Positions 3,527 through 27,364 of a stretch of DNA of 42,101 bases are shown in pieces (position 1 is the stretch's first letter; each line of letters begins with the position of its first letter). The DNA is from a virus. The translations under genes and the position numbers were made by a program. A model generated the notes under the pieces. That model saw only the letters and a list, made by a program, of their open reading frames with translations. It searched no databases and had not been told where the DNA came from. The DNA lies in the IMG/VR virus record IMGVR_UViG_3300048837_000263, positions 1 to 42,101 of that record; one strand, written 5' to 3'.

Positions 3527-3554
3527 CAAAACTTGATTATGTTTTGAGGTCAAG

Positions 3555-5630: not shown

Positions 5631-7921
5631 GCGACGCCTCCACAGTCGCGACGGAGTCGATCTTCGCTCGCGTCAAGCAGCAATTCTCGGCCTCTCAGGT
5701 CGCCTGCTACCTCGTGCCCGATGGCTCGCAGCGCGGCGATGAGTGGGTCGCCCGCAACCCCACACGCAACGACCAGACTGCGGGGTCGTTCTCCATCAAT
5801 TTACGGACGGGGAGGTGGGCCGACTTCGCTTCTGGCGATCGCGGCGGCGACATTATCGACCTCTGGCAGTACGTGCGGGGGGTCGGCGAGCCGTACGAGG
5901 CGGCCAAACAAATCGCCGATGAGCTCGGCGGCGGCGCCAAGCCTCCAATCACTGTCGCGCTCCGTGAGCCACGGCAGACGGACCCCGTCGAGCTGCTCTC
6001 GCCGATACCACAGGATGCGCCACAGCCGAGCCTCGAACATCCTCGCCACGGCAGGGCGCCTCGACACTCCACCTACTACTACCGCGACCTCGCTGGCCGC
6101 GTGCTGGGCATCGTGTGCCGATGGGACACTCCCGAGGGCAAGGCGATCGCCCCACGGTTTCTGTTCCGCTGCGCCGACGGTGTCATGCGGTGGTGCTGGG
6201 CAGGCCCCAAACCACCCGCCCGCAAGCCTATTTACAGGCTCGAACATCTCGGCAACGCCGAAACCGTGTGGATCGTCGAGGGCGAAAAAACAGCAGAGGC
6301 CGCGGCCGCTCACTACCTAGGTAAATCAACAGCAGTCATCTCGTGGATGGGCGGAGCCAACTCAGTCGATCACGTCGAGTGGTCTCCACTCGCGAACCGA
6401 CGGATCGTCCTGTTCCCCGATCAAGATGCGAAGCGCGACCCAGATGGCGAGCTGCTGCCATACGAGTCGCAACCTGGTGTGCGGGCCATGCTGACGATTG
6501 GCCGAAAACTCATGGCGCTTGGATGCCGCGTGACAATCATAGATTACCAGATCGACCCCGATCGAGATGGGTGGGATTTGGCCGACGCCGTCAACGAAAA
6601 CTGGGACAAGCAAAAACTGTACGATTACTGTCGTGAACACAAGCGCGACCTCAATCAAAAAAAAACGTATCATCCAACCGTCGAAGATGAACGCGCGGCG
6701 TTCTTCGGTTCGGTGCAGCTCTACACGCCCGTTCGCGTGGACAAATTCATTGTCGGGCCCAACGGTAAGGGGCTCGTTGATTGCTGGCAAAACATGGCGG
6801 AGATGCTCAATCAGTACGGCATCACGTGTCGACGAAACGACATGACCCACGACGTGATCATCGAGCACGCGCCCACAGGCAAGGAACTCGACTCCAACGA
6901 GATCTACTCACTCTGCGAGATGAACAAAATCAAGTCAAAGATGCGAGACGGTCACATCTCGGTGATCGCCAAAAACAACGCATTTCACCCCGCTCTCGAA
7001 TGGGTCAAGTCCGAGAAATGGGACGGCCTCGATCGCATCGTCGCGCTGTTCAATACGATCGACATCCACGCCAGCACACCGCGGCGGCTCGCGTTCTCAC
7101 TGTTCTATCGCGCCATGCTGCAGGCCATCGCACTATTGGCGCAAGAGGTTGTCGGCTCAAACGGATCGACCCCCGAAGCCCACGGCGTGCTCACGATTGT
7201 TGGCGATCAAGCTGCAGGCAAAACGAGGTGGATCCGCCGGCTATGCCCCGCCGAGTTTTCCATGGTCGGCGTGCAGCTGGCCGTGGACAACAAAGACTCC
7301 CAGATCAAGGCCGTCTCCCGGTGGATCGTCGAGCTCGGCGAGGTCTCATCGACGAAGTCGAAATCAGGCGTTGCAGCCCTCAAGGCATTTTTGACGTGCT
7401 CAAGCGACAACATCCGCTACCCGTACGAGCGCCGTGCCATCGAAACTCCGCGGCGCACCGTATATTTCGCAACCGAGAACTCGACGCGATATCTCACCGA
7501 TGAGACCGGGAATCGACGCTGGTGGACGATTCAGGTCAACAAGCTTGACCACGAGCACACCATCAACATGCAACAGTTTTGGGCACAAATGTACCACCTC
7601 ATCCACAAGGGCGAGCAATGGTGGCTCACGCACGACGAGCTGCGTGAGCTCAATCGACACAACGAATCGCATGAGGAGGACGATCCCATCGCCCACATGC
7701 TATCCGGAGGCCTCCGCTGGAGCGCGCCCGCTGACACGTGGACCTGGCGGGAACTTGCCATCGTGCTTGCGCAGGTGGGAGTCATGCAAATCACCCCAAC
7801 AGCGTGCAGGCGGGCTGCTAGGTATTTGCGCGAGCGTGATGTCGCCATCAGAACACCGACATCACGGCTCGCTACTCAGGCACTCGTGCCCCCCGTGGGG
7901 ACAGATTTTCGCCACGATTGA
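5627..7921 (+). CDS. Primase-helicase with TOPRIM and VapE-type ATPase domains
   Basis: The protein has 764 residues. The N-terminal region (about 20-110, GSFSINLRTGRWADFASG and GGDIIDLWQ) resembles the CHC2/primase zinc-binding region without its usual cysteines. A TOPRIM domain follows, with WIVEGEKTAEA (E at about 217) and VLFPDQDAKRDPDG. The C-terminal half matches the virulence-associated E/DUF5906-type superfamily 3-like ATPase: Walker A GDQAAGKTRW (about 526-535), RWIVELGEV as Walker B-like, and ATENSTRYLTDETGNRRWW. It should prime and unwind DNA at the phage origin, relying on the host polymerase. It ends where the AT-rich gap begins, a likely origin. Confidence 0.9.
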   Translation: MSDASTVATESIFARVKQQFSASQVACYLVPDGSQRGDEWVARNPTRNDQTAGSFSINLRTGRWADFASGDRGGDIIDLWQYVRGVGEPYEAAKQIADELGGGAKPPITVALREPRQTDPVELLSPIPQDAPQPSLEHPRHGRAPRHSTYYYRDLAGRVLGIVCRWDTPEGKAIAPRFLFRCADGVMRWCWAGPKPPARKPIYRLEHLGNAETVWIVEGEKTAEAAAAHYLGKSTAVISWMGGANSVDHVEWSPLANRRIVLFPDQDAKRDPDGELLPYESQPGVRAMLTIGRKLMALGCRVTIIDYQIDPDRDGWDLADAVNENWDKQKLYDYCREHKRDLNQKKTYHPTVEDERAAFFGSVQLYTPVRVDKFIVGPNGKGLVDCWQNMAEMLNQYGITCRRNDMTHDVIIEHAPTGKELDSNEIYSLCEMNKIKSKMRDGHISVIAKNNAFHPALEWVKSEKWDGLDRIVALFNTIDIHASTPRRLAFSLFYRAMLQAIALLAQEVVGSNGSTPEAHGVLTIVGDQAAGKTRWIRRLCPAEFSMVGVQLAVDNKDSQIKAVSRWIVELGEVSSTKSKSGVAALKAFLTCSSDNIRYPYERRAIETPRRTVYFATENSTRYLTDETGNRRWWTIQVNKLDHEHTINMQQFWAQMYHLIHKGEQWWLTHDELRELNRHNESHEEDDPIAHMLSGGLRWSAPADTWTWRELAIVLAQVGVMQITPTACRRAARYLRERDVAIRTPTSRLATQALVPPVGTDFRHD

Positions 7922-8130
7922 TCAGGCATTTAGTGAGCTTTTTTGTGACGTATTCTGCGCGATTCCGGATATTTCGGCGCGGCATGCGTGCAAAATGCCA
8001 TCGACCCCAAATCTATCCCCCCCACATCGATGCGCGATTTTGAACATGCGTATATCGCTCACCACTTTTTGGGGTGCGGTAAACGCACGTACGTAAATTG
8101 TACTCCGGCTTACAAAAATGAAAAAAGTAT

Positions 8131-8162
8131 TGTTCCACGGGCACTTTTCTCGTGTTCCACGG
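8131..8162. repeat. Two TGTTCCACGG direct repeats, 22-bp period
   Basis: TGTTCCACGG occurs at 8131-8140 and 8153-8162, so the copies sit on the same DNA face, two helical turns apart. This spacing is typical of iterons or activator sites. The surroundings are AT-rich. Confidence 0.6.
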
Positions 8163-8221
8163 AGCTGTAACATACTTAGATAAATACAAACCAAAGACTT
8201 ATGTAAATTTTAAAGGGTAGA

Positions 8222-8253
8222 TTGTAAGGGGGCTTAAAAAGAGGGGGTATAAT
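8222..8253 (+). promoter_or_regulatory. Candidate promoter with perfect TATAAT -10
   Basis: TATAAT at 8248-8253 is a perfect sigma70 -10 box. The best -35, TTGTAA (8222-8227), is 20 bases upstream, longer than the preferred 17. A G-rich spacer separates them. It points towards the late genes at 8484. A weak -35 may mean the promoter needs an activator. Confidence 0.45.
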
Positions 8254-8412
8254 TGCAGTATGTGTTTAAGCCGTTTTTTCACCTATCCCCCCCCACCATG
8301 CGAATTCTTGCGTAGAACGATGGCTACATAGCCGTAGCTGAAAATCATGTTTCATGTATGAATTAATCACTACATCACCCCTAGTGTTATCGGCGCCAGC
8401 ATCTAGTCGCTG

Positions 8413-8424
8413 CGCATATATGCG
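8413..8424. promoter_or_regulatory. 12-bp palindrome, possible operator
   Basis: CGCATATATGCG is a perfect 12-bp palindrome between the promoter candidate and the first late gene. Such sites often bind dimeric regulators; the two small HTH proteins of this phage are candidates. No direct evidence. Confidence 0.35.
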
Positions 8425-8429
8425 GCAAC

Positions 8430-8453
8430 AATAATTGCCACTAATTATTTTTT
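8430..8453 (+). terminator. AT-rich hairpin with T-run, weak terminator candidate
   Basis: AATAATT (8430-8436) and AATTATT (8443-8449) form a perfect 7-bp stem around GCCACT, followed by Ts to 8453. The stem lacks GC pairs, so it would be a weak terminator. It could equally be an attenuator before the late genes or part of the origin. Confidence 0.35.
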
Positions 8454-8483
8454 GTCTCTCGCCGAAATCACGAATCGGGTAGC

Positions 8484-10430
8484 ATGTGCTCGATGGCAGA
8501 TCGCCGACCGCTCGTCACGCCTGGCAAGATCGCCGAGATCGCCGACGGGGACCGTGCCATCGTGTCGGGCATCGTCCGCACCGCTGCCGGCGACCTCACG
8601 TTTGAGGACCCGGTCACAGGCGCCAAAACCCTCGCTCAGCTCGCGGCTGGCAGTGGGATCGGTGGGAGCACCGGGGCCACCGACGAGGCGCTACTGCGAG
8701 CTGATGGCACTGGCGGCTCGACTGCTCAGGCATCGACGATCACCGTGTCCGATGCGGGTCTCATCTCCGGCGGACTCATTGGCGCTCGGCTAACGCCGCA
8801 AGTGAGTCATCCCGGAGCGTCTGACGACGACACACTCTGGTGGACCACTGGCGGCGATCTGTACATCGGCAACGCTCGCATCGCCCTCGCGTACGAAATC
8901 ACTGAACCGACCTACATCACGCCGACGGCACTCGCTGCGCGAGCGGATGATTATGGGCCATCGGGATGGAACACCGCAACGCATGTGCGGCAGAACGTGA
9001 CCGGAGATCAGGAGATCTCTGGATTTGCGACGGCTGTCGTCGTGGGCTCGGTGTTGCCGGTAAAAACGAAATATTTACTGAACATCTCGACGACGAACAC
9101 ACTGACGCTCCTGCACGACTCAGCGTTCTCGTCGGCTGACAATCGCATCCGTTGCCCTGGTGGCGTTGATTTCGTGATGCCGCCGAGCTCTGGAGTCGTC
9201 ATTGCGCAGGAGCCATCGCCTGGGCCGATCTGGCGCGTGGTGTCGATCGGTGACACTGGCGGAGGCGGGGGCATCGGTGGCAGCACTGGCGCCAACGACA
9301 ACCGTGTTTTGCGAGCCGATGGCGCGGGCGGGGCAACCGTGCAGGCCTCGCCCGTGACGATCGACGACGCGGGCGCGGTGACTGGCGTGACGTCGCTGAC
9401 GGCATCGGGAGCATTGAGCGGCTCGAATCTCAGCGGAACGAACACCGGCGACCAGACGATCACTCTGACTGGCGACGTCACTGGCTCCGGTACGGGTTCA
9501 TTTGCGGCGACGATCGCCAATGACGCCGTGACCTACGCCAAAATTCAAAACGTCGCGGCCGACCGGCTGCTAGGTCGCGGCAACGGTGGCGGAGCTGGTG
9601 ATGTTCAGGAGATCACGCTCGGCACAAATCTGTCGATGGCGGCAGGAGTGCTCAATGCCACGAGTGGAGCGCCTAGCTACACGATAATCTCTCCGGCCTC
9701 GATTGGAGCGAATCAAAACAACTACTCGCCAGCGAGCTGGTCGACCGCCGACATCGTTCGACTGACTGGTTCGGGTAACTACGATATCACCGGGTTTGAT
9801 GCGACTGCGACGACAGTCCGCAAATTACTGTGGAACGTTGACACCGCGGACACGTTCACGCTCAAACACGAGAGTGGATCGTCAACAGCTGCGAATCGTA
9901 TCGTCTGCCCGTACGACCTCGATATGAAGCTAAGCCCTGATGGGGCGATCGTCATCCACTACGATGCAACGACAGCAAGGTGGCGAGCTGTTAGCGACGA
10001 GCGTAGGCCACCGATACTGCTATCGCAGGCGAGGCGAACCGCTGGCGCGCTGGTGGCGAGTGTCTCGTATATTGGATTCGACTCCGAGGTTTACCCGACT
10101 CTTGCTGAGCACTTGTCGTTTGATAGTGCAGGCACATGGACGGTCAACAAGGCGTGCACATTGCTCCTTCGCGACACAATCACGTGGTACGCGGCAACGT
10201 CAGGAGTTGCCTCTATCGTGATGGATTTTCGCAAAAACGCAGTCACGGTCCTACAGGAGCAGCGCTCAAGCGCCGAGCAAGCGACAGACAACTACACGAC
10301 GCAAACGATCGAGGTTGCACATGATTTTGTCGCTGGTGACACGATCCGCTTGTACCTCACTAATTTCGGCGGTTCACCGACAACTGTCGCAAACATGAAT
10401 ATCATGTCGATTTTCCACGTGAAGGGGTGA
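8484..10430 (+). CDS. Fibre-like virion protein with repeated GGSTG...RADG elements
   Basis: The protein has 648 residues, first of the late genes. Two related segments occur: IGGSTGATDEALLRADGTGG (about 55-90) and IGGSTGANDNRVLRADGAGG (about 265-300). These are followed by GTNTGDQTITLTGDVTGSG and LLGRGNGGGAGDVQEI, sequence common in phage tail fibres and other surface proteins of beta-rich trimeric type. Two copies of a segment containing T-x-LLH/LKHDS...ADNRI/ANRIVCP lie near 205-220 and 465-480. It probably extends from the virion and contacts the host. Either ATG at 8484 or 8493 could be the start; neither has a strong ribosome site. A fibre at the head of the late operon is unusual. Confidence 0.7.
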   Translation: MCSMADRRPLVTPGKIAEIADGDRAIVSGIVRTAAGDLTFEDPVTGAKTLAQLAAGSGIGGSTGATDEALLRADGTGGSTAQASTITVSDAGLISGGLIGARLTPQVSHPGASDDDTLWWTTGGDLYIGNARIALAYEITEPTYITPTALAARADDYGPSGWNTATHVRQNVTGDQEISGFATAVVVGSVLPVKTKYLLNISTTNTLTLLHDSAFSSADNRIRCPGGVDFVMPPSSGVVIAQEPSPGPIWRVVSIGDTGGGGGIGGSTGANDNRVLRADGAGGATVQASPVTIDDAGAVTGVTSLTASGALSGSNLSGTNTGDQTITLTGDVTGSGTGSFAATIANDAVTYAKIQNVAADRLLGRGNGGGAGDVQEITLGTNLSMAAGVLNATSGAPSYTIISPASIGANQNNYSPASWSTADIVRLTGSGNYDITGFDATATTVRKLLWNVDTADTFTLKHESGSSTAANRIVCPYDLDMKLSPDGAIVIHYDATTARWRAVSDERRPPILLSQARRTAGALVASVSYIGFDSEVYPTLAEHLSFDSAGTWTVNKACTLLLRDTITWYAATSGVASIVMDFRKNAVTVLQEQRSSAEQATDNYTTQTIEVAHDFVAGDTIRLYLTNFGGSPTTVANMNIMSIFHVKG

Positions 10431-10431
10431 T

Positions 10432-11271
10432 ATGCCATTCACAGTAATCTACCCGCAAACGGCATTCGCTGCGCTCGGTGGGAACAGCATCAAGCCGAGG
10501 GCGCTCGAAGCCGAGGTGCGAGCTCAGCCATCTATCACGACAGTTCTCGATCGAATCCGAGTGGCAAACCCTGGAAGCGGCAGCACTCCAGAGGTCGACG
10601 ATCCAACGGGTCGCACATGGGCGTTTATTTTCGCTGGTGCTGGCCCATTGAGTGGACCAGAGACCGCCGCACTCGATGCTGTCGTGGCGGCACACAGCGG
10701 CACAGAGTTAGTTTCGAGCACATCGATCACATTCCCATCTGGCGCCACCGCGTCACTTGGGGTCGTAAATGTCGGCCAGGTTTTAGCCAGAACAGCGGCA
10801 GGCGTAATCTCTGGAGTAACGGCGGCGGTCAACACCGTGCAATATGCAGAGATCGCATCGGCATCGCAGACATCTAGCGGAACGAGTTATGCCAATATTA
10901 CTGGGTTGTCTGCGCTGACTGTAGAATCTGGCAAATCGTACAGGTTCGAGGGCGTGATTCACTTTTCGATGTCTGGCACATCGGGATCGCCTGGCGTGGC
11001 GATCAATGGACCGATCACAAACGTTGCAGCGATGTACACCATCCCAAAGACTGCAACTGCAACACTAGCTAGACACGTTAGCACTGTAGATGCAGAGACA
11101 GACTCGACAAATGTAACCATCACCGCGAACACTATTCTTCCGTTTCACATCCTAGGCCGATTCACTGCGAGTTCCAGCGGAGCCGTGGCGCTGCGAATCA
11201 AGCGATATGGGTCGGGGACTGTATCGATCCGCGATTATAGCTGGCTTAGGCTGGAGGAGCTGCCGTCATGA
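10432..11271 (+). CDS. Virion surface or fibre-associated protein (beta-rich)
   Basis: The 279-residue product starts one base after the preceding stop and overlaps the DUF2213 gene. The C-terminal 130 residues (SGTSYANITGLSALTVESGK...YRFEGVIHFS...RIKRYGSGTVSIRDYSWLRLEEL) have the pattern of a jelly-roll fold like those at the tips of phage fibres and C1q/TNF-like domains. The N-terminus may be an attachment segment for the 8484 product. I infer a fibre tip or head decoration role from position and fold only. Confidence 0.6.
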   Translation: MPFTVIYPQTAFAALGGNSIKPRALEAEVRAQPSITTVLDRIRVANPGSGSTPEVDDPTGRTWAFIFAGAGPLSGPETAALDAVVAAHSGTELVSSTSITFPSGATASLGVVNVGQVLARTAAGVISGVTAAVNTVQYAEIASASQTSSGTSYANITGLSALTVESGKSYRFEGVIHFSMSGTSGSPGVAINGPITNVAAMYTIPKTATATLARHVSTVDAETDSTNVTITANTILPFHILGRFTASSSGAVALRIKRYGSGTVSIRDYSWLRLEELPS

Positions 11272-12287
11272 TTCGCACCGACTCCATTCGTTTCGATTTT
11301 TCGAGCGCTCGCATCGATGAGTCTACGGGATGGTGGCGCGTCGACGGTACGGCTGCGCTTGAGGGCGTCCTTAAATATCCTGCGGGCAATGAGTTTGTTC
11401 CGGCCGAAACGCTTGCTGCGAGTGCACCGTCGATCATCGGGATGCCCGTCATCGTGCGGCACCCGAGCAACGGCAAGCTTCTCGATGTCAAAAATACCAG
11501 GGACTACCAAGGCGGCTCGGTGACGGCGGCCCGGATGGACGGCGGCAGGCTGCGTGTCGAGATACTCCTGACTGACGAGCGGGCGATCGCGGCGGTGCAG
11601 TCTGGGATCGATGAGCTCTCGCCGGGATACGACGTCGCCGTCGAAAAAAAGTCTGGCGAATTCAATGGCGAGCGCTATGATGCAGTGCAGATTTCACGAA
11701 AATACAACCACCTCGCTCTGGTCGACAGAGCCCGAGGGGGCCGAGAGGCGAGACTAGACGAGGACGAAAAGAAAATGGCAACAGTGAAAATTGGAGAGAT
11801 CGAATACGAGGTGCCGCAAGAGGTTGCGGACTACATTGCGGGGATGCAAAAGACCGACGAACTTCCGCCGAAAGATGATGAGTCCGTAAAAATGGACGCG
11901 GCCGAGATCGTCGAGAAGGTCACTAAATCAGTGATCGAAGGACTCAACAAGGAACGCATCCGCCTCGACGCTGAGGCGCGATCGCTCGGTGACACCGTCG
12001 CCAAGTGCCGGCCACACCTTCCGCAATCCTACCGCACCGACGGCAAGGACCGCGGGCAGATTCTGGCGGACGCCATCGTGGCGATCAAGCCCGATCTCGC
12101 GGCGGTCGTGAAACAAAACTCGGCCAGCGTCGAGCGCCTTGATGGGATGTTCGACGGCCTCGTGAGCGGCGTCGTTCCGGTCAAACTCGACGACAAACGC
12201 ACCGATGCTCAGGAGAGCGACCCGGTGACCGCCGCACGAAATCGTCAGGCAGAAAAACTTCGCGCAGTGAATGAAGGTAAGGCATGA
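11268..12287 (+). CDS. DUF2213 prohead protease, probably with C-terminal scaffold
   Basis: Residues about 1-160 match DUF2213 head proteins: FDFSSARIDESTGWWRVDGT, AASAPSIIGMPVIVRHPS, ELSPGYDVAVEK, and RKYNHLALVDRARGG (a conserved His-Leu-Ala-Leu-Val block like that of HK97-type proteases). After residue 165 the sequence is charged and helical, as in scaffolds. ATG codon 170 (11775) follows a GAGGACGAAAAG stretch, so an internally started scaffold like lambda Nu3 is possible. It precedes the cement and capsid genes, the normal place. It should process the prohead and guide capsid assembly. Confidence 0.85.
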   Translation: MIRTDSIRFDFSSARIDESTGWWRVDGTAALEGVLKYPAGNEFVPAETLAASAPSIIGMPVIVRHPSNGKLLDVKNTRDYQGGSVTAARMDGGRLRVEILLTDERAIAAVQSGIDELSPGYDVAVEKKSGEFNGERYDAVQISRKYNHLALVDRARGGREARLDEDEKKMATVKIGEIEYEVPQEVADYIAGMQKTDELPPKDDESVKMDAAEIVEKVTKSVIEGLNKERIRLDAEARSLGDTVAKCRPHLPQSYRTDGKDRGQILADAIVAIKPDLAAVVKQNSASVERLDGMFDGLVSGVVPVKLDDKRTDAQESDPVTAARNRQAEKLRAVNEGKA

Positions 12288-13102
12288 GCGGCCAACTCGA
12301 CTACAGCTACAATCACCGAGCGGCTCTCGACGGCGCACCGGAGCACGCGGTCAACTACGATCGCCTGAGCTTCATCAACCCGCTGTCGATGCAAGTGTCG
12401 ACTCTCACCGTCGGTGGCACGGCCACCGATGGTAACTACGTCTTCACGGCGACGAATCCTGATGGCATCGCAGCAAGCGTCACCGTTGTGCGAGCGACAA
12501 CGCCGGCAACGAATACTGACATTGCAACGGCGATCAAAAATGCGATCAACGCATCGTCGTCGTTCATTGGCATTGCATCAGCGACGTCGGCCGCAGCCGT
12601 CGTGACCGTGACGTTCAAGCGCCCGCTTGTCTACACATTGACCACGAGTGCTCCTGCTCCAGGCACACTCGTCGCTGCGAACACAACGACAGCGGGCGGG
12701 TCGTATCTCGCCGTTGGGCGCTTCGTGAAGAAGGGCACCGGCGATCGAGATCTGACTCCAGTCGTCACTGGGACTACCATCGGCACCATCGTCGGCGTCG
12801 CGCTTCGCACCGGGCAGATTATCAATGGTGGCGACTTCGGCTTGACCTACGACTCGTATCGTCCGGGCGACGACGTTGCCGTAGGTCGTAGCGAACGCGT
12901 GTGGATGAAGGCCTTCGAGGCTGTTACGCCTGCCTCGACTCCGTATTGTTGGATCGACCACACGGACACGAGCGTCCCTGTCGGCGGCCTGGTTGCTGCC
13001 GCTAGCGGTGGCAAAGCGATCGACGCGTCGACGATCTGTCGCATCCTCACAACGACCGCAGCCGGGAGCAACGCTCTCGTAGAGATCTTTAAGGGGGTCT
13101 AA
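12284..13102 (+). CDS. Capsid cement/decoration protein with inserted beta module
   Basis: The 272 residues start MSGQLDYSYNHRAALDG and end with KGTGDRDLTPVVTGTTIGTI...YDSYRPGDDVAVGRSERVWM, the shape of 'structural cement' (Gp24-like) proteins that stabilise capsids next to DUF2184 capsid proteins. Residues about 38-140 are an inserted module (TVGGTATDGNYVFTATNPDG...TNTDIATAIKNAINA) that also occurs in the tail terminator and twice in the sheath. The start overlaps the protease stop (ATGA) and its stop abuts the capsid gene. Confidence 0.78.
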   Translation: MSGQLDYSYNHRAALDGAPEHAVNYDRLSFINPLSMQVSTLTVGGTATDGNYVFTATNPDGIAASVTVVRATTPATNTDIATAIKNAINASSSFIGIASATSAAAVVTVTFKRPLVYTLTTSAPAPGTLVAANTTTAGGSYLAVGRFVKKGTGDRDLTPVVTGTTIGTIVGVALRTGQIINGGDFGLTYDSYRPGDDVAVGRSERVWMKAFEAVTPASTPYCWIDHTDTSVPVGGLVAAASGGKAIDASTICRILTTTAAGSNALVEIFKGV

Positions 13103-14100
13103 TGTTTAGGCAATCACTACAGCAATTCGCGCAACGCCACGCGATCGAGCTCGGAATTCGCACCGATGCTGATTCGATGTTCTTCACTCGCCAGCTTGAG
13201 CAGGTGCTGGCGAAGGAATACGACAAGGAGTTCCCTGAGCTGACGATTGCCAGCGGCTCACTGCTGCCGATGGACTCAGAGGTCCAGTCCGGCGCCGAGA
13301 GCTACGTCTATTACTACGTCGAGCCCACGGGCATGGCGAAAATCTTGAACACGTACGCGGACACCGACTTGCCTGAGATTGGACTTGCGGGCAAAGAGAC
13401 CGTCGGCAAAATCGTTGCCATCGGTGCCGTTTACGGTTGGTCGTTCCAAGATCTTCGCACCGCAGCGATGGCCAACCGCGACATCACGACTCGCAAGGGC
13501 AACGCGTCCAAGCAGTCGCACATGATGGTCGCCAACAAGCTCGGTTGGTTCGGAGACATGGCGCGTGGGTTGTATGGGCTGCTGACGCACCCGAACATCA
13601 CTTACACGCTCGCGCCGTTCAAGGCTGGCGGGTCCGTGGCGGCAGACCGCCTCTGGTCAGCGAAAACGTTCGAGGAGATCCTCGCGGATGTTGGCACGCT
13701 GATCAACACACCGTCCGACATCACGCGAAATGTTGAGAAGGTCGACACGGTTGTTTTCCCATCCAAGGTCGCGAATGCCTTGGCGGCACGAGTTGTGAGC
13801 CCGACCAACGGAAGCAACGTCAACATCTGGAACTTCTTGAAGGGGAACTTCCCTGGAGTGACGTTCGAGACGGCAACTGAGCTCGACATCACCGGCCATG
13901 AGGATACGGAGTTTGTCGGCGTGAACGTGGCCGTGGCATTCAAGAAGGATTCTGACAAGATCTCCTTCGTGATGCCGCAGCCTTACGAGCAATTCCCACC
14001 GCAAGAGAAACTCTTGCGCGTCATCATCCCGACGCACTCACGATGCGGCGCGGTCAAGTGCCCTGCACCACTCTCGGTGCACGTCATGACAGGATTCTAA
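13102..14100 (+). CDS. Major capsid protein (DUF2184 family)
   Basis: The 332-residue protein has features of DUF2184 capsid proteins: FFTRQLEQVLAKEYDKEFPE at the N-terminus, GAESYVYYYVEPTGMAKIL, IGAVYGWSFQDLRTAAM, and HMMVANKLGWFGDMARGLYG. The C-terminus (SVHVMTGF) and the block PQPYEQFPPQEKLLRVIIP fit the HK97-like fold's P and A domains. The size is usual. It sits directly after the cement gene. Confidence 0.92.
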   Translation: MFRQSLQQFAQRHAIELGIRTDADSMFFTRQLEQVLAKEYDKEFPELTIASGSLLPMDSEVQSGAESYVYYYVEPTGMAKILNTYADTDLPEIGLAGKETVGKIVAIGAVYGWSFQDLRTAAMANRDITTRKGNASKQSHMMVANKLGWFGDMARGLYGLLTHPNITYTLAPFKAGGSVAADRLWSAKTFEEILADVGTLINTPSDITRNVEKVDTVVFPSKVANALAARVVSPTNGSNVNIWNFLKGNFPGVTFETATELDITGHEDTEFVGVNVAVAFKKDSDKISFVMPQPYEQFPPQEKLLRVIIPTHSRCGAVKCPAPLSVHVMTGF

Positions 14101-14102
14101 CG

Positions 14103-14471
14103 ATGAGTGAGCAATCGACAAAAACAATCGTAGTGAACGACACTTCACGAATCCTTCAGTTCCCCATGCCTCGCAAAGTCGCTGATGGCATGGTGGAGCA
14201 CGACATCTTGCGGCTCATGCCAGGAGCCAACATCGTTGATTCCAAGGTCTACGAGTCGCAGAAGAAAAACTTCGGCAGCGAGATCTTCGCACTCGACAAG
14301 CCGCTTTCATCTCTGAGCGAGCGCGATGCGATCTCCATTATTTCGCGCACCATCAATCTTGAGCTGCTCAAGGCGTTCGAGACTGCCGATAAGCGCGATA
14401 AGGTCCGCAAGGCCATCGCAGCGCAGATCGCCGAGTGTTCGGGCAAGGCTAAATCGGTCGAGGTCGCATAA
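14103..14471 (+). CDS. Unknown head-cluster protein (122 aa)
   Basis: Chosen start ATG 14103 follows the capsid stop by two bases; the upstream open frame lies inside the capsid gene. The protein has a beta-like N-terminus (TIVVNDTSRILQFPMP) and a helical C-terminus (SERDAISIISRTINLELLKAFETADKRD). It lies between capsid and DUF4054 genes. I do not recognise a family; a head-assembly role follows from position only. Confidence 0.75.
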   Translation: MSEQSTKTIVVNDTSRILQFPMPRKVADGMVEHDILRLMPGANIVDSKVYESQKKNFGSEIFALDKPLSSLSERDAISIISRTINLELLKAFETADKRDKVRKAIAAQIAECSGKAKSVEVA

Positions 14472-14896
14472 TGAGCAGATTCGCCACATCCGTCGACGTT
14501 TTGCTCTGGTATCCGTCGCTCTCGACGACGAGCCCGGAGCTCATGCAGGCCGCGATCGATGCGGTCGAGTGCATGTTTGATGTCGACGTGTGGGGCTGCA
14601 ACCTGCTGGCGGGATCGACCCACGCAACCGCCCACGTGCTGCTCATGCAAGCCAAGGCCGCGAGCGCCTCGGGCAGCACTGGCAGCGCCGGGCCCGTCTC
14701 GCAAATGAGCATGGGCCCCGTCTCGATCTCCTACGCGTCAGGGGCATCGAGCACGACTGGCGACGATTGGTGGCGCCTCACGGGCGCGGGTCAAGCGTAT
14801 CTCGCCCTGCGGGAACTCTGCGGCCCAGTTCCGTTCGCAGCGATGGCAGGCCAGTGCGATTCATGGCCGAGCGGAGCGAGGTGGCCATGCCGGTGA
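14471..14896 (+). CDS. Head-tail connector (DUF4054-like)
   Basis: The 141-residue protein fits DUF4054 adaptor proteins: an N-terminal helix pair (PELMQAAIDAVECMFDVDVWG), a long helix (ATAHVLLMQAKAAS), then a glycine-rich turn, MSMGPVSISYAS, and a C-terminal DDWWRLTGAGQAYLALRE. Family members attach under the portal to form the neck ring. It overlaps its neighbours on both sides. Confidence 0.8.
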   Translation: MSRFATSVDVLLWYPSLSTTSPELMQAAIDAVECMFDVDVWGCNLLAGSTHATAHVLLMQAKAASASGSTGSAGPVSQMSMGPVSISYASGASSTTGDDWWRLTGAGQAYLALRELCGPVPFAAMAGQCDSWPSGARWPCR

Positions 14897-15438
14897 TTGA
14901 TCGCGATCGAGGAATGAAGGCGCTTCGGCGCGAGCTGGCGTACCTAGGGAGCCATCACGCGCGCATCGGCGTGCTGTCGGGTCCAGGTAGAGGCGGCAAC
15001 GTACAGGCGCAGGCGCCGAAAAAATCCCCGCCGAAATCACGTCGCAAAAAACGCGGATCGAAGGTCGCGCCAGCTTCTGGTACTGGTCGCGGACTCACGG
15101 TCGCCGAGGTTTTTGCGTGGCATGAGCTCGGGCTCGGGCGAAATCCCAAGCGCAGCTCGATCGGCTGGGTCGAGAAACATAAACAGCGGGAGATCGTCGC
15201 GTTCCAAACAAAGTTGCTCGACCTCGTACTCGCGCAAAAAATGGGCGGCAAAGAAGCGCTTTGGGTTCTCGGCGAGAAGGCTCAGTCGCTCGTCAAGGCG
15301 CGCATCGTGTCGGGCATTCCGCCCGCCCTGAGCCCCGAATACCTCAAGCGCAAAGAGGTTGCAGGCGGCAAGAAAACTCCACTAATCTGGACGGGCCAAC
15401 TCTTGAACTCGATCCGATATAAGGTCGTCGCAACATGA
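14887..15438 (+). CDS. Neck/tail completion protein (HK97 gp10-like)
   Basis: The 183-residue product starts at ATG 14887 behind GAGG (an ATG at 14863 is an alternative). The sequence ends LIWTGQLLNSIRYKVV, the conserved TGQLLxSI tail of HK97 gp10-like head-tail joining proteins. An internal lysine/arginine-rich insertion (KKSPPKSRRKKRGSK, about 45-60) is unusual and could touch DNA or be disordered. WHELGLGRNPKRSSIGW matches the family's HExG...PxRxF region. Confidence 0.78.
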   Translation: MPVIDRDRGMKALRRELAYLGSHHARIGVLSGPGRGGNVQAQAPKKSPPKSRRKKRGSKVAPASGTGRGLTVAEVFAWHELGLGRNPKRSSIGWVEKHKQREIVAFQTKLLDLVLAQKMGGKEALWVLGEKAQSLVKARIVSGIPPALSPEYLKRKEVAGGKKTPLIWTGQLLNSIRYKVVAT

Positions 15439-16502
15439 CCACGCCAACCGCATTCAACATCGGGTTTCAGACGACGGCGCAGCTCTTGGCAGTGCCAGAG
15501 ATGGCGCCGACTGGCTACGTCAACGGTGCCGGTATACCGGACACTGCTGCAGACTGCAACACGCGTGCGAATGCGGTGTATGCTGGATTCATCCGCCAAT
15601 GCCTCGCGCAGATAAACGAGATCATGTTGGGCAACGTCGTGCCGCCTGGCATCGGCACCTTGCAGGGCACGACGTGGCGACCTGGCGACGATGCCTCAAA
15701 CACGGTTGAGCCGGACGATGTAACAGTTTACGGCATTACCACGCCGTCATCGCTCTGGACGCTCAGCGGCACCGCTGCGAGTGAGTACGCGGGGCCAAAC
15801 ATGGCGGGCAGTCTGTCGACCTACTATCAGCTACAGAACGCACGTGGCGGGGTCAACGGTGAATCGAAGCTGATCTACGGAGGTCGAACGTTTGCTGGAA
15901 ATGTGCTGTTCAACGACGCGGCGATCACGATTGGCCAGACCGTTGCATGGTGTGGGTTCGTGCATATCGGGAACTGGAACCAGGCCAACAAAGGTGCGAT
16001 CATCGCCACGCACCGCGCCTACGATCGCGTCACGGAAACGGGCGCGTCGTACCGACTCGGGTTCGAGCTCGGGCTCGGAGATCTCGTTGGCATCGACGAC
16101 CCGGGGGCACTGGCGCTGTACTACCGCCACGTCAACGCGTCCGATGTCGAGGTGATTCGCGGGATCAATATATCGGGTTCGAATCGCATTGCACTAAGTG
16201 CAGGCCGCGAGTGGTTTGTCGGGATGCTGCGCACCGCGACGACGCTCGACATTTTCATCAATGGCCTGCTCGTATTCACGACGACATTCGGGGCGGGCGA
16301 CGAGCCGTCACCAGGCACCGCACCGGAGATGCGTCTCATGCATGGCGGGAGCTGGGTTGGCTCGGAGCTCACGGCGGACACCTCACGCTACATTGACGGG
16401 GCATTTCGCAACGTCGCGTTGTGGAACACATCGCAGCCCAATGCTGCGCAATTATTGAGCTTCTATCGCGTCGGTGCGGGATTCCTGGAGAAGGCACCAT
16501 GA
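15435..16502 (+). CDS. LamG/concanavalin-like virion protein
   Basis: The 355-residue product has a C-terminal lectin-like jelly roll (about 120-350): CGFVHIGNWNQANKGAIIAT, REWFVGMLRTATTLDIFING, RLMHGGSWVG, and YIDGAFRNVALWNTSQ. This is the strand order and 'F-IDG-xx-NVALWN' ending typical of LamG/ConA-like domains, which bind carbohydrate. The N-terminal 110 residues resemble a small helical attachment domain. It sits in the middle of the neck genes, overlapping both neighbours. It may decorate the neck or head and bind glycans; its place here is odd for a lectin. Confidence 0.75.
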   Translation: MTTPTAFNIGFQTTAQLLAVPEMAPTGYVNGAGIPDTAADCNTRANAVYAGFIRQCLAQINEIMLGNVVPPGIGTLQGTTWRPGDDASNTVEPDDVTVYGITTPSSLWTLSGTAASEYAGPNMAGSLSTYYQLQNARGGVNGESKLIYGGRTFAGNVLFNDAAITIGQTVAWCGFVHIGNWNQANKGAIIATHRAYDRVTETGASYRLGFELGLGDLVGIDDPGALALYYRHVNASDVEVIRGINISGSNRIALSAGREWFVGMLRTATTLDIFINGLLVFTTTFGAGDEPSPGTAPEMRLMHGGSWVGSELTADTSRYIDGAFRNVALWNTSQPNAAQLLSFYRVGAGFLEKAP

Positions 16503-16873
16503 TCGACATGACCGCACTGGCTGGCGTTGTCGAGGCTTTCGCCACGGGCGAGCTCACGGTCTCACGTGCGCAGCCGGTGGCAATCGTCAACGGTCGTCGA
16601 GTCGACGGCACGTTTGCGCCGCTCACTGGCGTCGTTGGTTCGGTGTGGCCCATTGCTGGCGACAGCGTTGACGTCGATGAGTTTGGGCGAAGGCAATCGA
16701 GCACGGCGGAAATCTATTGCTTGCAGGAGCTGCGGATCGCCGACGACGGGGCGACGAGCTTGCCGGGCGATCGGGTCACGCACAACGGTGTCGTGTACGA
16801 AGTGATCGCTCAACAAAACTGGACGCGAGGCGAGTTCTTCGTCTACGTCGGGCGGGACGTGGGCCACCCATGA
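16499..16873 (+). CDS. Neck/head-closure protein (putative)
   Basis: The 124-residue product starts with ATG overlapping the LamG stop. The C-terminal half, DDGATSLPGDRVTHNGVVYEVI followed by NWTRGEFFVYVGRDVG, has the 'GDxVxxxGxxYEVxxxxdW...Fxxxxxxr' pattern of small beta-barrel head-closure or stopper proteins. Order (after gp10-like, before terminator) fits. The exact family is not certain. Confidence 0.65.
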   Translation: MIDMTALAGVVEAFATGELTVSRAQPVAIVNGRRVDGTFAPLTGVVGSVWPIAGDSVDVDEFGRRQSSTAEIYCLQELRIADDGATSLPGDRVTHNGVVYEVIAQQNWTRGEFFVYVGRDVGHP

Positions 16874-17652
16874 GGACCGCCTACGCACGCCCCGAGCTTG
16901 AGGCGCATCTCATCGACGCGACTCGACGCATCCTCGGGTTGCCGGCCGACAAGGTTTTTATCGGCGATTTTGCGAGCGACACGGCTGCGCCGGAGCGACC
17001 GTTTGTTTCGATTATCGTTGCGCCAGAGTCATCTCCTTCGCGCACGGGGACGGTCCGTTACCAGCCGGGGATTGAGTACTGGCGCTGCGAGATTATCGAC
17101 GATGTCGATGGCAATTACTCGATCGAGGTCGATGGCACGACGTTCACACACGCGGCTGTCGGGCAAACGAAAGCGCAGATTCGCGATGCACTCGTGGCGT
17201 TACTTGGCGGGCCTAACTACACGGCGGCCGCTGCCGGTAGCGTGAGCATCGACATCGAGTCGGAGGTGCTGTTGCGCCGTTTGCTGGTGTCGTCGTCGGC
17301 GAATATCACGAGCGAGAAGCTGCGCGGGAACACGATCAAGATCACCACTCGAACGCAGTCGCTCGCGGTGCAAGCTCGGTGCGTCGGCTCGTACTCAGCG
17401 ACGCCAAGCGCAACGAACTCCGGCGTCGACATGGCCGAGCGGTTGCTTGTTGGGCTCTATGATGCCGACACAACGCGGGCCATGCGAGACGATGGGTTTG
17501 CGATTAACTCTGGGGTAGTGGCCGACCTCTCGACGATCACGGATGGATTCGCGGAGCTCATCGGATCGCTCGATGCGACGTGCGTTACAAATAGCATCTA
17601 CGTCGAAACCATTGACAACGCGACCAGTGCAAGTGTAAGATTCGAGGAGTAA
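16870..17652 (+). CDS. Tail terminator/neck protein (LIC_12616-like) with inserted module
   Basis: The 260 residues begin MRTAYARPELEAHLIDATRR and continue PFVSIIVAPESSPSRTGTVRY, then a C-terminal part MAERLLVGLYDADTTRAMRDDGFAINSGVV...DATCVTNSIYVETIDN. This split resembles LIC_12616-type neck/terminator proteins (small alpha-beta fold closing the tail tube). Residues about 70-162 are an inserted copy of the module shared with cement protein and sheath (DGNYSIEVDGTTFTHAAVGQ, then KAQIRDALVALLGG). It ends 2 bases before the sheath. Confidence 0.7.
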   Translation: MRTAYARPELEAHLIDATRRILGLPADKVFIGDFASDTAAPERPFVSIIVAPESSPSRTGTVRYQPGIEYWRCEIIDDVDGNYSIEVDGTTFTHAAVGQTKAQIRDALVALLGGPNYTAAAAGSVSIDIESEVLLRRLLVSSSANITSEKLRGNTIKITTRTQSLAVQARCVGSYSATPSATNSGVDMAERLLVGLYDADTTRAMRDDGFAINSGVVADLSTITDGFAELIGSLDATCVTNSIYVETIDNATSASVRFEE

Positions 17653-17654
17653 AC

Positions 17655-19343
17655 ATGCCGCAAAACGACTTTGTCGAAGTAACAGTAAATCTACAACCGG
17701 CAAGCGCGGCGACTGCTACGCTTGACACTGCGATGATCATTCACTCGCTGACCGATGCGCAAGATCAGGCTTTTGGCGGCCCGCGATTCAAGCTGCTCAC
17801 CGCGGACACGTGGCCGGATGACCTTGCTGGCCTCGGCATCACCGACGGCGAGGCCGCGTACGAGGACGTGCAGGCCCATTTCGGCCAGGCCAACGTGCCG
17901 GACAAGGCGTATCTTGGCCGCCGCGGCAAGGACATCGCGCAGGTCTGGACGGTCACCGCCCCCGGCGTGCCAGCCGATGGCAACTACACGATCGTTGTCT
18001 CGCAAAACGGAGTGCCAGCGGTTGGATCTCCTTACAATTTCGCGGCGTCATCGGATACGCAAAACGATGTGCGAGATGGTCTCGTCACTGCGTGCGGTGC
18101 AGGTTCGGCGATGTTCACCGTCGCTGCGGGTGGTGCTGGCGAGGTGGTGCTCACGTCCGTTTTGCCAGGCGTCGCCCTCACGGTGTCGGTCGTATCGCCA
18201 GCGTCGAGCATGACTGCAGCGGTGACCACTGGCACCAAGGTCGCCGCGGTCGCCCAGGTCTGGACGATGGACATTGGCAGCGCTGCGGCTGGCGTCTACG
18301 AGCTCATCGTGTCGACGTCGACGGGTCAGAAAACTTACACCCACGTTGCGATCTCCGGAGCGACTGCGACGACGATCCGCGACGCCATCAAAGCGCTCTA
18401 CGATGCGGACCCGAGCGACCTGTTCGGCGCCACCATGGCATCGGTGTCTACCGACAAGGGCACGCTCACGGCCTCGCTTGCGGGTCGCCCGGGCAGCGTG
18501 ACGATCACCTCGCCGGCGAGCGATGCGACGGCCACCGTGACCACGGCAAATTACGGCATCGCCGACGACGTCACTGCGCTCATCGCCGCGAATCCGAACT
18601 GGTACATGGCGATCCTTGGCTCGCACGTCAAGGCGGAGATCTTGCTCTTCGCCGAGCGCATCGAGGCCACTCAGGGCACGACGGCGCCCAAGGCCGGACT
18701 CGTACAGACGAGCGACGCTGACACGCTCACGGACGCGGCGGACAACGTGCTGGAGCTCCTGCAGGAGCGGTCGTATTTGCGAGTCGCGGGGTGTTACCAC
18801 TCGCTGAACGCTGAGGGATTCCACGCTGCCGCGGCGGGCTACGTGCTGCCGATCCCTGCGGGTAAGGTCTCGTGGGTCGCCAAACCGATCGTCGGGCTAA
18901 CACCGGAGGATTTTACCTCGTCGTCGTCGCCGGCCAACATCCGCTCGAATGAGGGATGGTGGCTCGAAAACTTCGCGGCGAGAAATCAGTCGGTCATCAA
19001 TGGCGGGTACTCGTTTCGCGGCGTTCCGTTCGATATCATCCGAGCGATCGACACGTTTTGGCTCAATGCTTCGAGTGCATTGATGGATCTGTTGGTAAAC
19101 AACTTGATCGTGCCATATACGAACGCCGGGCTCTCACAGGCGCGAGGCGTCGTAAAGACGGCGTACAACAATGCAGTGTCGGCTGGCTATGCGGTCGAAG
19201 GAACGCTCGTCTTGAGCGAGCCGAAAATTAGTGACGCAACTGGCAATGAGCGATCGCGGGGAATCTTCCCCGAATTCGTCGCATCCTTCATTATCCAAGC
19301 CGGAGCGCACAAGGTTCGCGCCACGTTCAACGTGTCGCAATAA
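17655..19343 (+). CDS. Contractile tail sheath protein (DUF3383), two inserted modules
   Basis: The 562-residue protein matches DUF3383 sheath proteins. The N-terminus is MPQNDFVEVTVNLQPASAAT. The core beyond residue 300 contains NPNWYMAILGSH, SYLRVAGCYHS, and NEGWWLENFAARNQSVINGG. The C-terminal domain ends GAHKVRATFNVSQ. Residues about 96-194 and 200-299 are two copies of a roughly 100-residue beta module (QVWT...GNYTIVVSQNG and QVWT...GVYELIVSTSTG), placed where sheath proteins often carry surface insertions. It shows that the tail contracts. Confidence 0.92.
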   Translation: MPQNDFVEVTVNLQPASAATATLDTAMIIHSLTDAQDQAFGGPRFKLLTADTWPDDLAGLGITDGEAAYEDVQAHFGQANVPDKAYLGRRGKDIAQVWTVTAPGVPADGNYTIVVSQNGVPAVGSPYNFAASSDTQNDVRDGLVTACGAGSAMFTVAAGGAGEVVLTSVLPGVALTVSVVSPASSMTAAVTTGTKVAAVAQVWTMDIGSAAAGVYELIVSTSTGQKTYTHVAISGATATTIRDAIKALYDADPSDLFGATMASVSTDKGTLTASLAGRPGSVTITSPASDATATVTTANYGIADDVTALIAANPNWYMAILGSHVKAEILLFAERIEATQGTTAPKAGLVQTSDADTLTDAADNVLELLQERSYLRVAGCYHSLNAEGFHAAAAGYVLPIPAGKVSWVAKPIVGLTPEDFTSSSSPANIRSNEGWWLENFAARNQSVINGGYSFRGVPFDIIRAIDTFWLNASSALMDLLVNNLIVPYTNAGLSQARGVVKTAYNNAVSAGYAVEGTLVLSEPKISDATGNERSRGIFPEFVASFIIQAGAHKVRATFNVSQ

Positions 19344-19352
19344 AGGAGAATT

Positions 19353-19859
19353 ATGGCGAACAATGCAACATGGGATTTCGCGAATCTGAACGTCGTGTTT
19401 GGCGGTCACCAGATCACTGGCTTCGCCGACGGCGACTCATACACAATGGATTTCGACGTTGATCGATTCACGAAGAGAGTCGGAAATTATGGACTTGGCG
19501 CGTGGGCAAAGTCCAATAACTTCGGCGCCGGCGGGTCGTTCACGTTGCTCTCAACGAGCGACGATAACACGATCTTGCAGGCGTTCCTGTCAGCCGATGA
19601 GATGACACCGGGCGGTGTGCTGGTGCCATTGGTGGCTCTTGAGACCGGCGGAATCCTGTCGCATACCGGACTGTTTCGCATCACTAAGGCGCCAAGCGTT
19701 TCACGTGGAACGGATGTCCCCACGACAACGTGGGTCATCGGAACGACTCGTCTGATTCAGGTTCTTGGCGGGTCTACGCCTTCAATCATCATCGACAGCG
19801 TTGCCGCAGCTCAGGCCATCGTGGCCGCGGGCGCAGCATCGCTTGCGCAGCCGAACTAA
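19353..19859 (+). CDS. Tail tube protein (DUF3277)
   Basis: The 168-residue protein starts behind AAAGGAG. Sequence MANNATWDFANLNVVFGGHQ, ITGFADGDSYTMDFDVDRF, and WAKSNNFGAGGSFTLLSTSDD matches DUF3277 tube proteins, which follow DUF3383 sheaths in this type of phage. It forms the inner tube through which DNA passes. Confidence 0.9.
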   Translation: MANNATWDFANLNVVFGGHQITGFADGDSYTMDFDVDRFTKRVGNYGLGAWAKSNNFGAGGSFTLLSTSDDNTILQAFLSADEMTPGGVLVPLVALETGGILSHTGLFRITKAPSVSRGTDVPTTTWVIGTTRLIQVLGGSTPSIIIDSVAAAQAIVAAGAASLAQPN

Positions 19860-25527: not shown

Positions 25528-25925
25528 GCGTGTTTCGGCTAACGACAGAGTCGACCGATCTCTACAGGCCGGCGACTGCGACATCTTTCGAGCGCGTCAC
25601 CGATGCTGTCCAAGGCGCGCAGCATCTACGCACGCGACTGCGATTGTTTGAGGGCGAGGTTTTCCGCGACACGCGAATCGGCGTTCAGTTTTTCTCGTTC
25701 GTGACGCAGATCGGCGTGCCGCCATCGGCGATCGCTAATCACTTCGCAGCGATAGCACTCGACACGCCTGGAATCACGGATTGCGAAATCACGTTCTCGC
25801 TTGAGCCGGTGCGTGGTATTGTGCAGATCGATGCGGATGCTGTATTCACGTTGGATGATCAACGAACTCGTGTGCCCATTCACGAGCGAATCATGGTAAA
25901 CACTGGGGGGAGCGTTCAAGCATGA
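25524..25925 (+). CDS. Baseplate wedge protein gp25-like
   Basis: The 133-residue protein fits the GPW/gp25 group: VTDAVQGAQHLRTRLRLFEG followed by RDTRIGVQFFSFVTQIGVPP (the 'xxLxxRLxxxxGExxxdxxxGi' pattern), then IALDTPGITDCEITFSLEP. It forms the inner wedge that links baseplate and sheath. It overlaps its neighbours by ATGA, with baseplate J next, the standard order. Confidence 0.85.
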   Translation: MSVFRLTTESTDLYRPATATSFERVTDAVQGAQHLRTRLRLFEGEVFRDTRIGVQFFSFVTQIGVPPSAIANHFAAIALDTPGITDCEITFSLEPVRGIVQIDADAVFTLDDQRTRVPIHERIMVNTGGSVQA

Positions 25926-27364
25926 GCACTGGTTTTATTCCGCCTACGTATGAGCAGATTAGGGCCGACATCGTCGCGCGTTGGAAGGCAACGTTTGGCG
26001 CCAACGCTGACACCGCAAGCGACACTGTCGATGGGCTCATCGTTGACCTCGTTTCGCTTGGCGGCCAGAAGGTCGCCGACGCGCTGACAGAGTGCTACAA
26101 TCAAGGAAAGTTCGGGACCGCAACGGGACTCAACATTGACGCGATTATCGGGTCGCTGTTCCTCAATTATCGCCGTCAAGCCACCGCAACTCAGGGCGAG
26201 CTTTGGCTCTATGGCGCGGACTCGACGGTCGTGCCAGCTCTGTCGGAGGTCGCAACGATTGACACGGGCGTCACGCTTCGCACGACGGACATCGTGACGA
26301 TCGCCGACGGTGTTTATTTCGTGATGGTCTTCGATGAGCTTGGAGCGCCGGACACGATCACGACGACGATCGGAGCGGCCGTAACGGTCTCGAATACGCC
26401 TGCGGGTGACGCCGAGTTTGTTCGAGCAGACGTTGCCTTTGATCTGCTTGGCAACTTAAACGTGGCGAACGTCTGGGCGCTCGGAGAGCAGGTCGACGGA
26501 CGCGCTATTTTGCTAGTGCAGAAAACGTCGACGTGGTCGGAGTCGGTGACTGGCGGCGGTGTGGACTACTACCCGGCGACGCTCGGATACATGGAGGCCA
26601 ACAATACGGGGCCGCAGTCCGCGAACGCTGGAACCGTGACGCGCATCGTCACTCCAGTTGCTGGGTGGGAGGGCTGCGTCAACATCATCGATGCGACCGT
26701 TGGGCGCCTCGCAGCGAGCGACGCGGAATACAAGTCGACTCACCTGGCAAACTTTCAAAGTCGAGGCGCAACGACCGGCCGCGCGCTTGCGGGGAAACTC
26801 TTGCAGCTCGATGGCGTAACTCAGGTTCGCGTCTACCAAAACACGACCGATTTTATCGATGCGGCATTTCGCCCGGCGCACTCTTACGAGGCTGTCGTTC
26901 TCGGTGGCGAACAAAACGAGATCGCCGAAACGATTTGGCTCAATCACGATCTCGGCATCGAAACCTATGGTGGCGTTGCAATCAACGTCATCGACGAGCA
27001 AGGATATCTCCCGCAAACTCGTGTCGTCCGATTCTCGCGGCCAACCTATCGCTACGCATGGGCACGCCTAACGATCGCTCCCGGAGAAGGATTCCCCGAT
27101 CTTGCATTGACGGACATCCAAGCGTTGATATCCGGCGCAATGGAGACGTGGGGCAACGGTCTTGGTATTGGCCGCGACGTACCGGTGGCGCAAGTCATCG
27201 GCGTTGTGGTCAATAATCTTGCAGGTGTCTCTGGCGTCGGCGTCGAGTTAGCAACGACCGTCTCGATAGTTGGGCCGCCATCCTATGGCCCAGCAAGCCT
27301 CACGATTGGCGAGGTCGAGATTAGTGTCTGGTCTGCAACGCGAGTGGAGGTCATCCTCACATGA
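25922..27364 (+). CDS. Baseplate J-like protein
   Basis: The 480-residue protein has the baseplate_J signature: FIPPTYEQIRADIVARWKAT at the N-terminus, YRRQATATQGELWLYGADST with VPALSEVATI, the conserved NTGPQSANAGTVTRI block, TKSTHLANFQSRGATTGRAL-like 'ExDxxyR.R' region and a C-terminal RLTIAPGEGFPDLALTDIQA domain. It forms the wedge arm contacting fibres. Confidence 0.92.
   Translation: MSTGFIPPTYEQIRADIVARWKATFGANADTASDTVDGLIVDLVSLGGQKVADALTECYNQGKFGTATGLNIDAIIGSLFLNYRRQATATQGELWLYGADSTVVPALSEVATIDTGVTLRTTDIVTIADGVYFVMVFDELGAPDTITTTIGAAVTVSNTPAGDAEFVRADVAFDLLGNLNVANVWALGEQVDGRAILLVQKTSTWSESVTGGGVDYYPATLGYMEANNTGPQSANAGTVTRIVTPVAGWEGCVNIIDATVGRLAASDAEYKSTHLANFQSRGATTGRALAGKLLQLDGVTQVRVYQNTTDFIDAAFRPAHSYEAVVLGGEQNEIAETIWLNHDLGIETYGGVAINVIDEQGYLPQTRVVRFSRPTYRYAWARLTIAPGEGFPDLALTDIQALISGAMETWGNGLGIGRDVPVAQVIGVVVNNLAGVSGVGVELATTVSIVGPPSYGPASLTIGEVEISVWSATRVEVILT

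Follow-up and report, generated by a model that had tools for sequence, protein, structure and literature searches.

Four copies of a probable sheath-extension domain in the cement, tail terminator and tail sheath proteins of one viral genome

The window analysed here is the complete virus record IMGVR_UViG_3300048837_000263 (42,101 bases), in which 380 open reading frames (ORFs) were scanned. It encodes a module of about 85-100 residues that is found four times in three structural proteins, namely once in the cement protein of the head, once in the tail terminator of the neck, and twice in the tail sheath. The best explanation overall, and one that we consider likely, is that these are four copies of a single self-folding domain of the sheath extension (lateral) class, reused over the particle. 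A preliminary description of this DNA had recognised the four segments as one module, and had placed them to within about 30 bases of the limits given by a hidden Markov model (HMM), which are the limits used below.

12284 to 13102, + strand: gene for the cement (capsid decoration) protein, 272 amino acids (aa), Pfam family Phage_cement (PF22758), with one module inside.
12389 to 12697, + strand: module copy 1, cement residues ~36-138, near the N-terminus and preceding the region aligned to PF22758, which starts at profile position 26.
16870 to 17652, + strand: gene for the tail terminator (Tc1), 260 aa, assigned by gene order and a match to PF23961 just below the cut-off, with one module inside.
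17074 to 17328, + strand: module copy 2, terminator residues ~69-153, placed centrally in its host.
17655 to 19343, + strand: gene for the tail sheath, 562 aa, phrog_205 (3.8e-42), with two tandem modules inside.
17934 to 18233, + strand: module copy 3, first of the sheath tandem, at a site that has 0 or 1 copy in relatives.
18249 to 18548, + strand: module copy 4, second of the sheath tandem.

The four segments can be aligned along their length. Each pair was compared by Smith-Waterman alignment against 1000 composition-preserving shuffles, giving z scores of 9.4 for the two sheath copies, 8.9 for the terminator and the first sheath copy, 5.9 for the cement and the first sheath copy, and 5.3 for the terminator and the second sheath copy. 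The other two pairs, cement with the second sheath copy (1.7) and cement with the terminator (1.3), are below 2, so that the cement copy is tied to these two only via the first sheath copy, which is the hub of the set. An independent HMM was built from sheath and baseplate modules of other phages, with no window sequences, and its top four matches among the window ORFs are exactly the four copies, the terminator copy being second. Among shuffled ORFs, its two best scores are equalled 0.05 times per window, as against 0.6 times for its two weaker scores, and therefore the second sheath copy and the cement copy (4.6 bits) are not significant by this HMM alone and need other evidence. Profile-profile comparison of the window modules with those of other phages gave P 1.8e-6 and a probability of 90%, against 1.6% for the reversed control. 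The homology proposed at the outset thus stands, with z scores of 5.3-9.4 in four of the six pairs and the top four places in the HMM search. The term β module needs amendment, in that the module contains a conserved helix (pattern T-x-x-x-I-x-x-A-I/L) and is not purely β.

Might the likeness be due to chance, or to the composition of Ala/Thr/Val-rich β segments? The two pairs that fail against shuffles and the low score of the cement copy with the HMM free of window sequences would fit this idea. It is nevertheless very improbable, given that the other pairs have z scores of 5-9, that the module accounts for the length excess in each host protein, and that Foldseek and VIA place the cement segment on the outer domains of sheaths; for both sheath copies and the terminator copy it is refuted.

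The host proteins are assigned as follows. The cement protein matches PF22758 with 39.7 bits (cut-off 27), its residues 133-267 corresponding to profile positions 26-144, and the best PDB match of its model is the Pam3 cement protein (8hdt_G). Its gene lies immediately upstream of that for the major capsid protein:

13102 to 14100, + strand: major capsid protein, listed for context (PF09950, 4.9e-41; phrog_264, 7e-67).

The terminator matches PF23961 (Phage_tail_terminator_9) with 23.7 bits, slightly below the cut-off of 27, over residues 149-257 (profile 51-148); its gene lies between the head-closure and sheath genes, and the order Hc1-Tc1-sheath is common to the relatives. The sheath has solved homologues in 9zdk, 9mt4 and 9c39.

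Orthologues were taken from relatives with the same gene order, and they bear out the proposal that the modules are inserted. The cement protein has 159-177 aa in six orthologues and 124-130 aa in two more distant phages, as compared with 272 aa in the window, and the terminator has 163-226 aa as compared with 260 aa. The sheath has 333-374 aa and no module in Aeribacillus phage AP45, Faecalibacterium phage FP_Brigit and Vibrio phage 1.123.O, showing that the module is dispensable for the sheath fold; it has 430-452 aa and one module in DIBBI, Meifeng, POR1, NoPa, Ab03, wV8 and ctsHD2 (in ctsHD2 the copy is assigned by position and length, the module profile being below significance there), and two modules in the window. 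The length excess of each host protein agrees with the size of the module. In an alignment with 10 sheath proteins, the sheath site follows the N-terminal part and precedes the main domain. Since sheath orthologues carry 0 or 1 copy and cement and terminator orthologues none, the sheath is the usual home of the module, the copies in cement and terminator having been added.

Some of the database searches gave little. A profile search of PDB sequences with the four window modules alone found no match, and tblastn of single modules against phages gave nothing useful. IMG/VR holds no close relatives of the window cement, terminator, capsid and sheath except for one contig, which is 100% identical to the window for sheath and terminator, and the window sheath has no match among GTDB contigs.

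The structure of the window cement protein was predicted using AlphaFold2. In the model, the module has strands at residues 37-42, 52-57 and 63-68, a helix at 77-90, and further strands at 96-101, 106-111, 116-121 and 133-137, a β3-α-β3/4 topology. Foldseek with this model lists the Pam3 cement protein first (E 1.2e-4), followed by flagellin (E 0.020) and the phiTE sheath (E 0.024, probability 1.00). Residues 37-136 were superposed on solved structures using VIA-align, with Z 11.7 for the phiTE sheath (residues 86-178, root-mean-square deviation 1.9 Å, 88 aa), 10.6 for the A-1(L) sheath (93-185), 8.9-9.2 for the Milano sheath (89-202, 30-31% identity over ~101 aa) and 9.2 for a Bas63 baseplate chain (133-228). 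T7-type nozzles gave Z 8-10, flagellin up to 10.2 and FliD 7.7; one domain each of GbpA, whose PDB title is colonization factor, and of the LPMO CbpD gave 8.7-8.8. Middling Z scores are frequent for such models; the top rows exceed that level and span the whole module. Residues 91-203 of the Milano sheath are the external sheath extension domain (SED) of its authors (PMC10811340). As modelled, then, the fold is one that is already known, the sheath outer-domain fold, a β-sandwich flanked by one helix, and the cement copy is predicted to share it with the extension or lateral domains of type-2 phage tail sheaths (Milano, phiTE, A-1(L), Sf14, Bas63). The preliminary description had suggested superposing all four segments. 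The cement copy superposes on the solved sheath outer domains (Z 8.9-11.7), and the other copies are joined to it by their sequences. In Pfam no window module matches Flagellin_IN (PF07196), the best module from a relative scoring 12.4 bits against a gathering score of 22.7; the structural resemblance to FliD and flagellin stands despite this result. Nor was there a match of a window module to Ig-like families in Pfam at E≤10, a search in which fast filters may lose weak matches.

The preliminary description had also proposed searching other phages for insertions into non-homologous virion proteins, and such carriers were indeed found among sheath, wedge, cement, head-closure and terminator proteins. 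With an HMM of sheath modules, the baseplate wedges of DIBBI (E 1e-9) and Meifeng-like records are seen to carry a module at residues ~140-220, and there is a profile match to the solved Bas63 Wedge protein 2 (9ndy; E 0.002). A second environmental phage group was collected by a sheath search (L088-L100) and by a search with the L092 cement module (L101-L131), among which cement is over-represented because of that query. It carries a relative of the module, which we call type B (L092-type), the window-type module being type A. The sequence link between the two types is weak (profile P 0.001, probability 20%), and their kinship is drawn from the two models, which agree in the regions of solved sheath, nozzle and wedge structures that they match. 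In the cement model of L092 (predicted local distance difference test, pLDDT, 84.5), the insert at ~57-152 matches phiTE 86-178, A-1(L) 94-185, T7 nozzle 149-248 and Bas63 wedge 134-227.

Type B is hosted by cement, head-closure, terminator and baseplate wedge proteins, and by the sheath at its usual site. In the head-closure protein (L107, L115, L118) it is inserted cleanly after a RWQEGSQ stretch. In L120 it is found in the terminator (PF23961, 5e-13), and the sheath of the same phage (3099-4559) has a module at a second, N-terminal site and none at the usual site. L092 (genome G001) has the module in cement, sheath and wedge. The clearest instance of the wider phenomenon is L118 (genome G008, 20472 bases), which has about six type-B modules in four virion proteins:

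2750 to 3556: cement protein.
5884 to 6561: head-closure protein.
7099 to 9276: sheath.
G008:C1:16643-17629: 668-aa frame at the position of the wedge.

In L088, L090, L092 and L100, the sheath and the wedge protein each have a type-A module with a type-B module nested in it, and this composite looks as if it had been copied as a cassette from one protein to the other. The insertion sites also differ. In the cement protein the window module lies ahead of a VGRFVKKG stretch and that of L092 after the matching stretch, and in the terminator the module is near the N-terminus in L120 and in the middle of the protein in the window; each of these two host proteins seems to have received its modules in separate insertion events. 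As a separate observation, the Rhizobium phages RHph_I42, N46, N28_1, N42 and RHEph12 (~193 kb) have a type-B module in the tail sheath, with 32-39% identity.

A fifth copy was considered in the following protein of the window, where relatives have one:

25922 to 27364, + strand: probable baseplate wedge (J-like) protein, its identity as a wedge being by sequence inspection only.

A copy there is plausible by eye and unsupported: z is at most 1 in all comparisons with the copies except one (2.9), and the independent HMM gives E 0.88. In this the protein is unlike the wedges of Bas63, DIBBI and the Meifeng-like records.

How the copies arose was addressed by building trees. The four window copies form one clade within the sheath-type modules (support 92/81, present in 95% of bootstrap trees), as would be expected from the spread within one genome claimed by the preliminary description, although this support is below the starred level, the rows being short and the branches long. 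The single clade favours a spread of the module inside this genome, with the sheath as its probable source, short of certainty. The modest level of that support is one of several points that weigh against the explanation given at the outset. The type-B copies group mostly by host protein and not by genome, so most type-B insertions are taken to be old or inherited and not freshly copied. The fold was modelled for the cement copy alone of the four, the other three being assigned through their sequences, and in that AlphaFold2 model the mean pLDDT is 63, with the module mostly at 60-82. Finally, exposure is plausible for the cement and terminator copies, and it is only for the sheath copies that the surface position proposed in the preliminary description is borne out, through their homology with the external Milano domain (PMC10811340).

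These trees also bear on whether each host protein could have acquired its module independently from the phage pool, the likeness between copies then reflecting constraints of fold and genome composition. The grouping by host protein in the second group (L092, L107, L118) would agree with this, as would the differing cement and terminator sites in the window and other phages, and the fact that the cement module has 30-31% identity to the Milano sheath domain (~101 aa) and at most 28% to the sheath copies of its own genome. We nevertheless regard separate acquisition as unlikely, in view of the single clade in 95% of bootstrap trees and of the four out of six pairwise scores that exceed composition-preserving shuffles. 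Even in the type-B tree there may be exceptions to the grouping by host protein, since the L120 terminator copy joins the L120 sheath copy (97/84), and the L107 cement copy the L107 sheath copy (one 89/81 fork).

Within the second group, the cement genes of L092, L106, L110, L111 and L114 have synonymous divergence in the module up to about twice that of the flanking cement sequence; between L092 and L110, pS is 0.69 in the module and 0.33 in the rest of the protein (~twofold). This suggests that the cement module is exchanged by recombination as a unit, separately from its host protein. The ratio pN/pS is ~0.05-0.2 between closely related cement modules, a sign of purifying selection, which does not suggest an arms race.

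The sheath copies are presumed to be exposed by homology to the external domains of Milano (PMC10811340) and A-1(L), in the latter of which the domain is external and the density outside the sheath is poor (PMC10966104). One role, which is possible though somewhat less likely than not, is in bracing and docking, the modules locking neighbouring subunits and holding fibres. In Milano a Cys47-Cys182 disulfide links the SED with the body of the sheath subunit next to it (PMC10811340); in A-1(L) the long fibre and a hub cleft are both held by a wedge insertion of ~100 residues, which may or may not share this fold (PMC10966104); and in phage 812 an additional sheath domain touches a neighbour (PMC9230969). 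Against such a role, module-free sheaths exist (AP45, Brigit, Vibrio 1.123.O), and the phiTE domain is reported to have no direct part in contraction (PMC12846349).

For the glycan binding or shielding suggested in the preliminary description, the analysis gave no sign in either direction. Adhesion and stability are the published hypotheses for extra sheath domains (PMC9230969). An adhesion coat, in which weak multivalent binding of host-surface glycans would aid attachment, as proposed for phage Ig-like domains, would suit copies on many exposed structural proteins and the fold match to GbpA and CbpD (Z 8.7-8.8), and adhesion was suggested for the extra sheath domains by Evseev et al. (PMC9230969). 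We think it doubtful, because modules of the related group are under purifying selection and the solved relatives have structural roles in nozzle, wedge and sheath.

Returning to the explanation that we prefer, a single reused domain of the sheath extension class, the home of the domain in this lineage would be the outer side of the tail sheath. A tandem duplication would have occurred in the sheath, and recombination would have placed further copies in loops of the cement protein and the terminator. Such a domain could be plugged into a loop if it folds alone and its two ends are close together, a geometry implied by the nested and loop insertions. All the hosts being structural particle proteins, the head, neck and tail of the particle would then each bear this domain, with two per sheath subunit. 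By analogy with the solved systems, the most likely role is a dispensable and peripheral one, structural or in contacts, in which the modules would brace neighbouring subunits and hold or space appendages, possibly with some weak contact with the host surface. The parts of this explanation that we infer are the exposure on head and neck, the route of copying, and the role.

The fold itself is already known, as is its recurrence: the phage Adele study (PMC12846349) names nozzles, auxiliary capsid proteins, FliD and flagellin as further places where the lateral sheath domain is seen. The same recurrence was met here independently, in nozzles (8i4m, 7y1c, 7y22, 8es4), FliD (5h5v, 6iwy) and flagellin (8erm, 4nx9). 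That report concerns one domain in proteins of different organisms, whereas in the window different virion proteins encoded by a single genome carry copies, several in all. The sheath copies are at the same site as the known extension domains, with the N-terminal part before it and the main domain after it; the matched solved sheaths have one domain at that site, whereas the window sheath has two in tandem, and there are further copies in cement and terminator. In the Felix-type wedge (Bas63 Wedge protein 2, 9ndy) the module is recognised by profile (E 0.002) as well as by structure (Z 9.2).

The Ig-like domains of phage virions (Fraser et al., cited in PMC9230969) are likewise small, exposed and promiscuous β domains added to structural proteins. 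They provide an analogy only; the module has an internal helix, and at E≤10 it gave no match to an Ig family in Pfam.

As far as we found in open papers, what appears to be new is the spread of copies over head, neck and tail proteins encoded by one genome, the use of terminator and head-closure proteins as hosts, the different sites within the same protein, the nesting, and a second phage group (L092, L118, L120) that reuses a relative of the module in the same way.

Other features of the window were noted in passing. A 355-aa protein (15435-16502), within the neck gene block and directly upstream of the head-closure-like gene, resembles by eye a LamG/ConA-type lectin fold and is a possible carbohydrate-binding decoration; it has no match in Pfam at E≤1. 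A 648-aa protein (8484-10430), upstream of the head protease gene, has a DUF5907 repeat match and a segment of ~110 residues that is apparently repeated internally. The terminase and portal genes are downstream of the tail genes, ~18 kb from the protease-cement-capsid block (29908-33492 as against 11268-19859), a placement that differs from the usual order in relatives.

The finding implies that one autonomous domain has been repeatedly tolerated in unrelated loops, namely those of cement, head-closure and terminator proteins, two sites in the sheath, the wedge, and the module itself. The host proteins are thus natural examples of tolerated insertion sites in virions, and the module links phage tails with the surface domains of flagella. 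Some small contractile phages may even have spread one plug-in domain through the genome so that matching surface domains on head, neck, tail and baseplate work together as one coat that serves adhesion or stability. This would be a genome-wide kind of display not yet described as one, and the idea is speculative and on balance improbable. Because a single domain is present on several parts of one particle and absent in relatives, the role of the extra sheath domains becomes directly testable.

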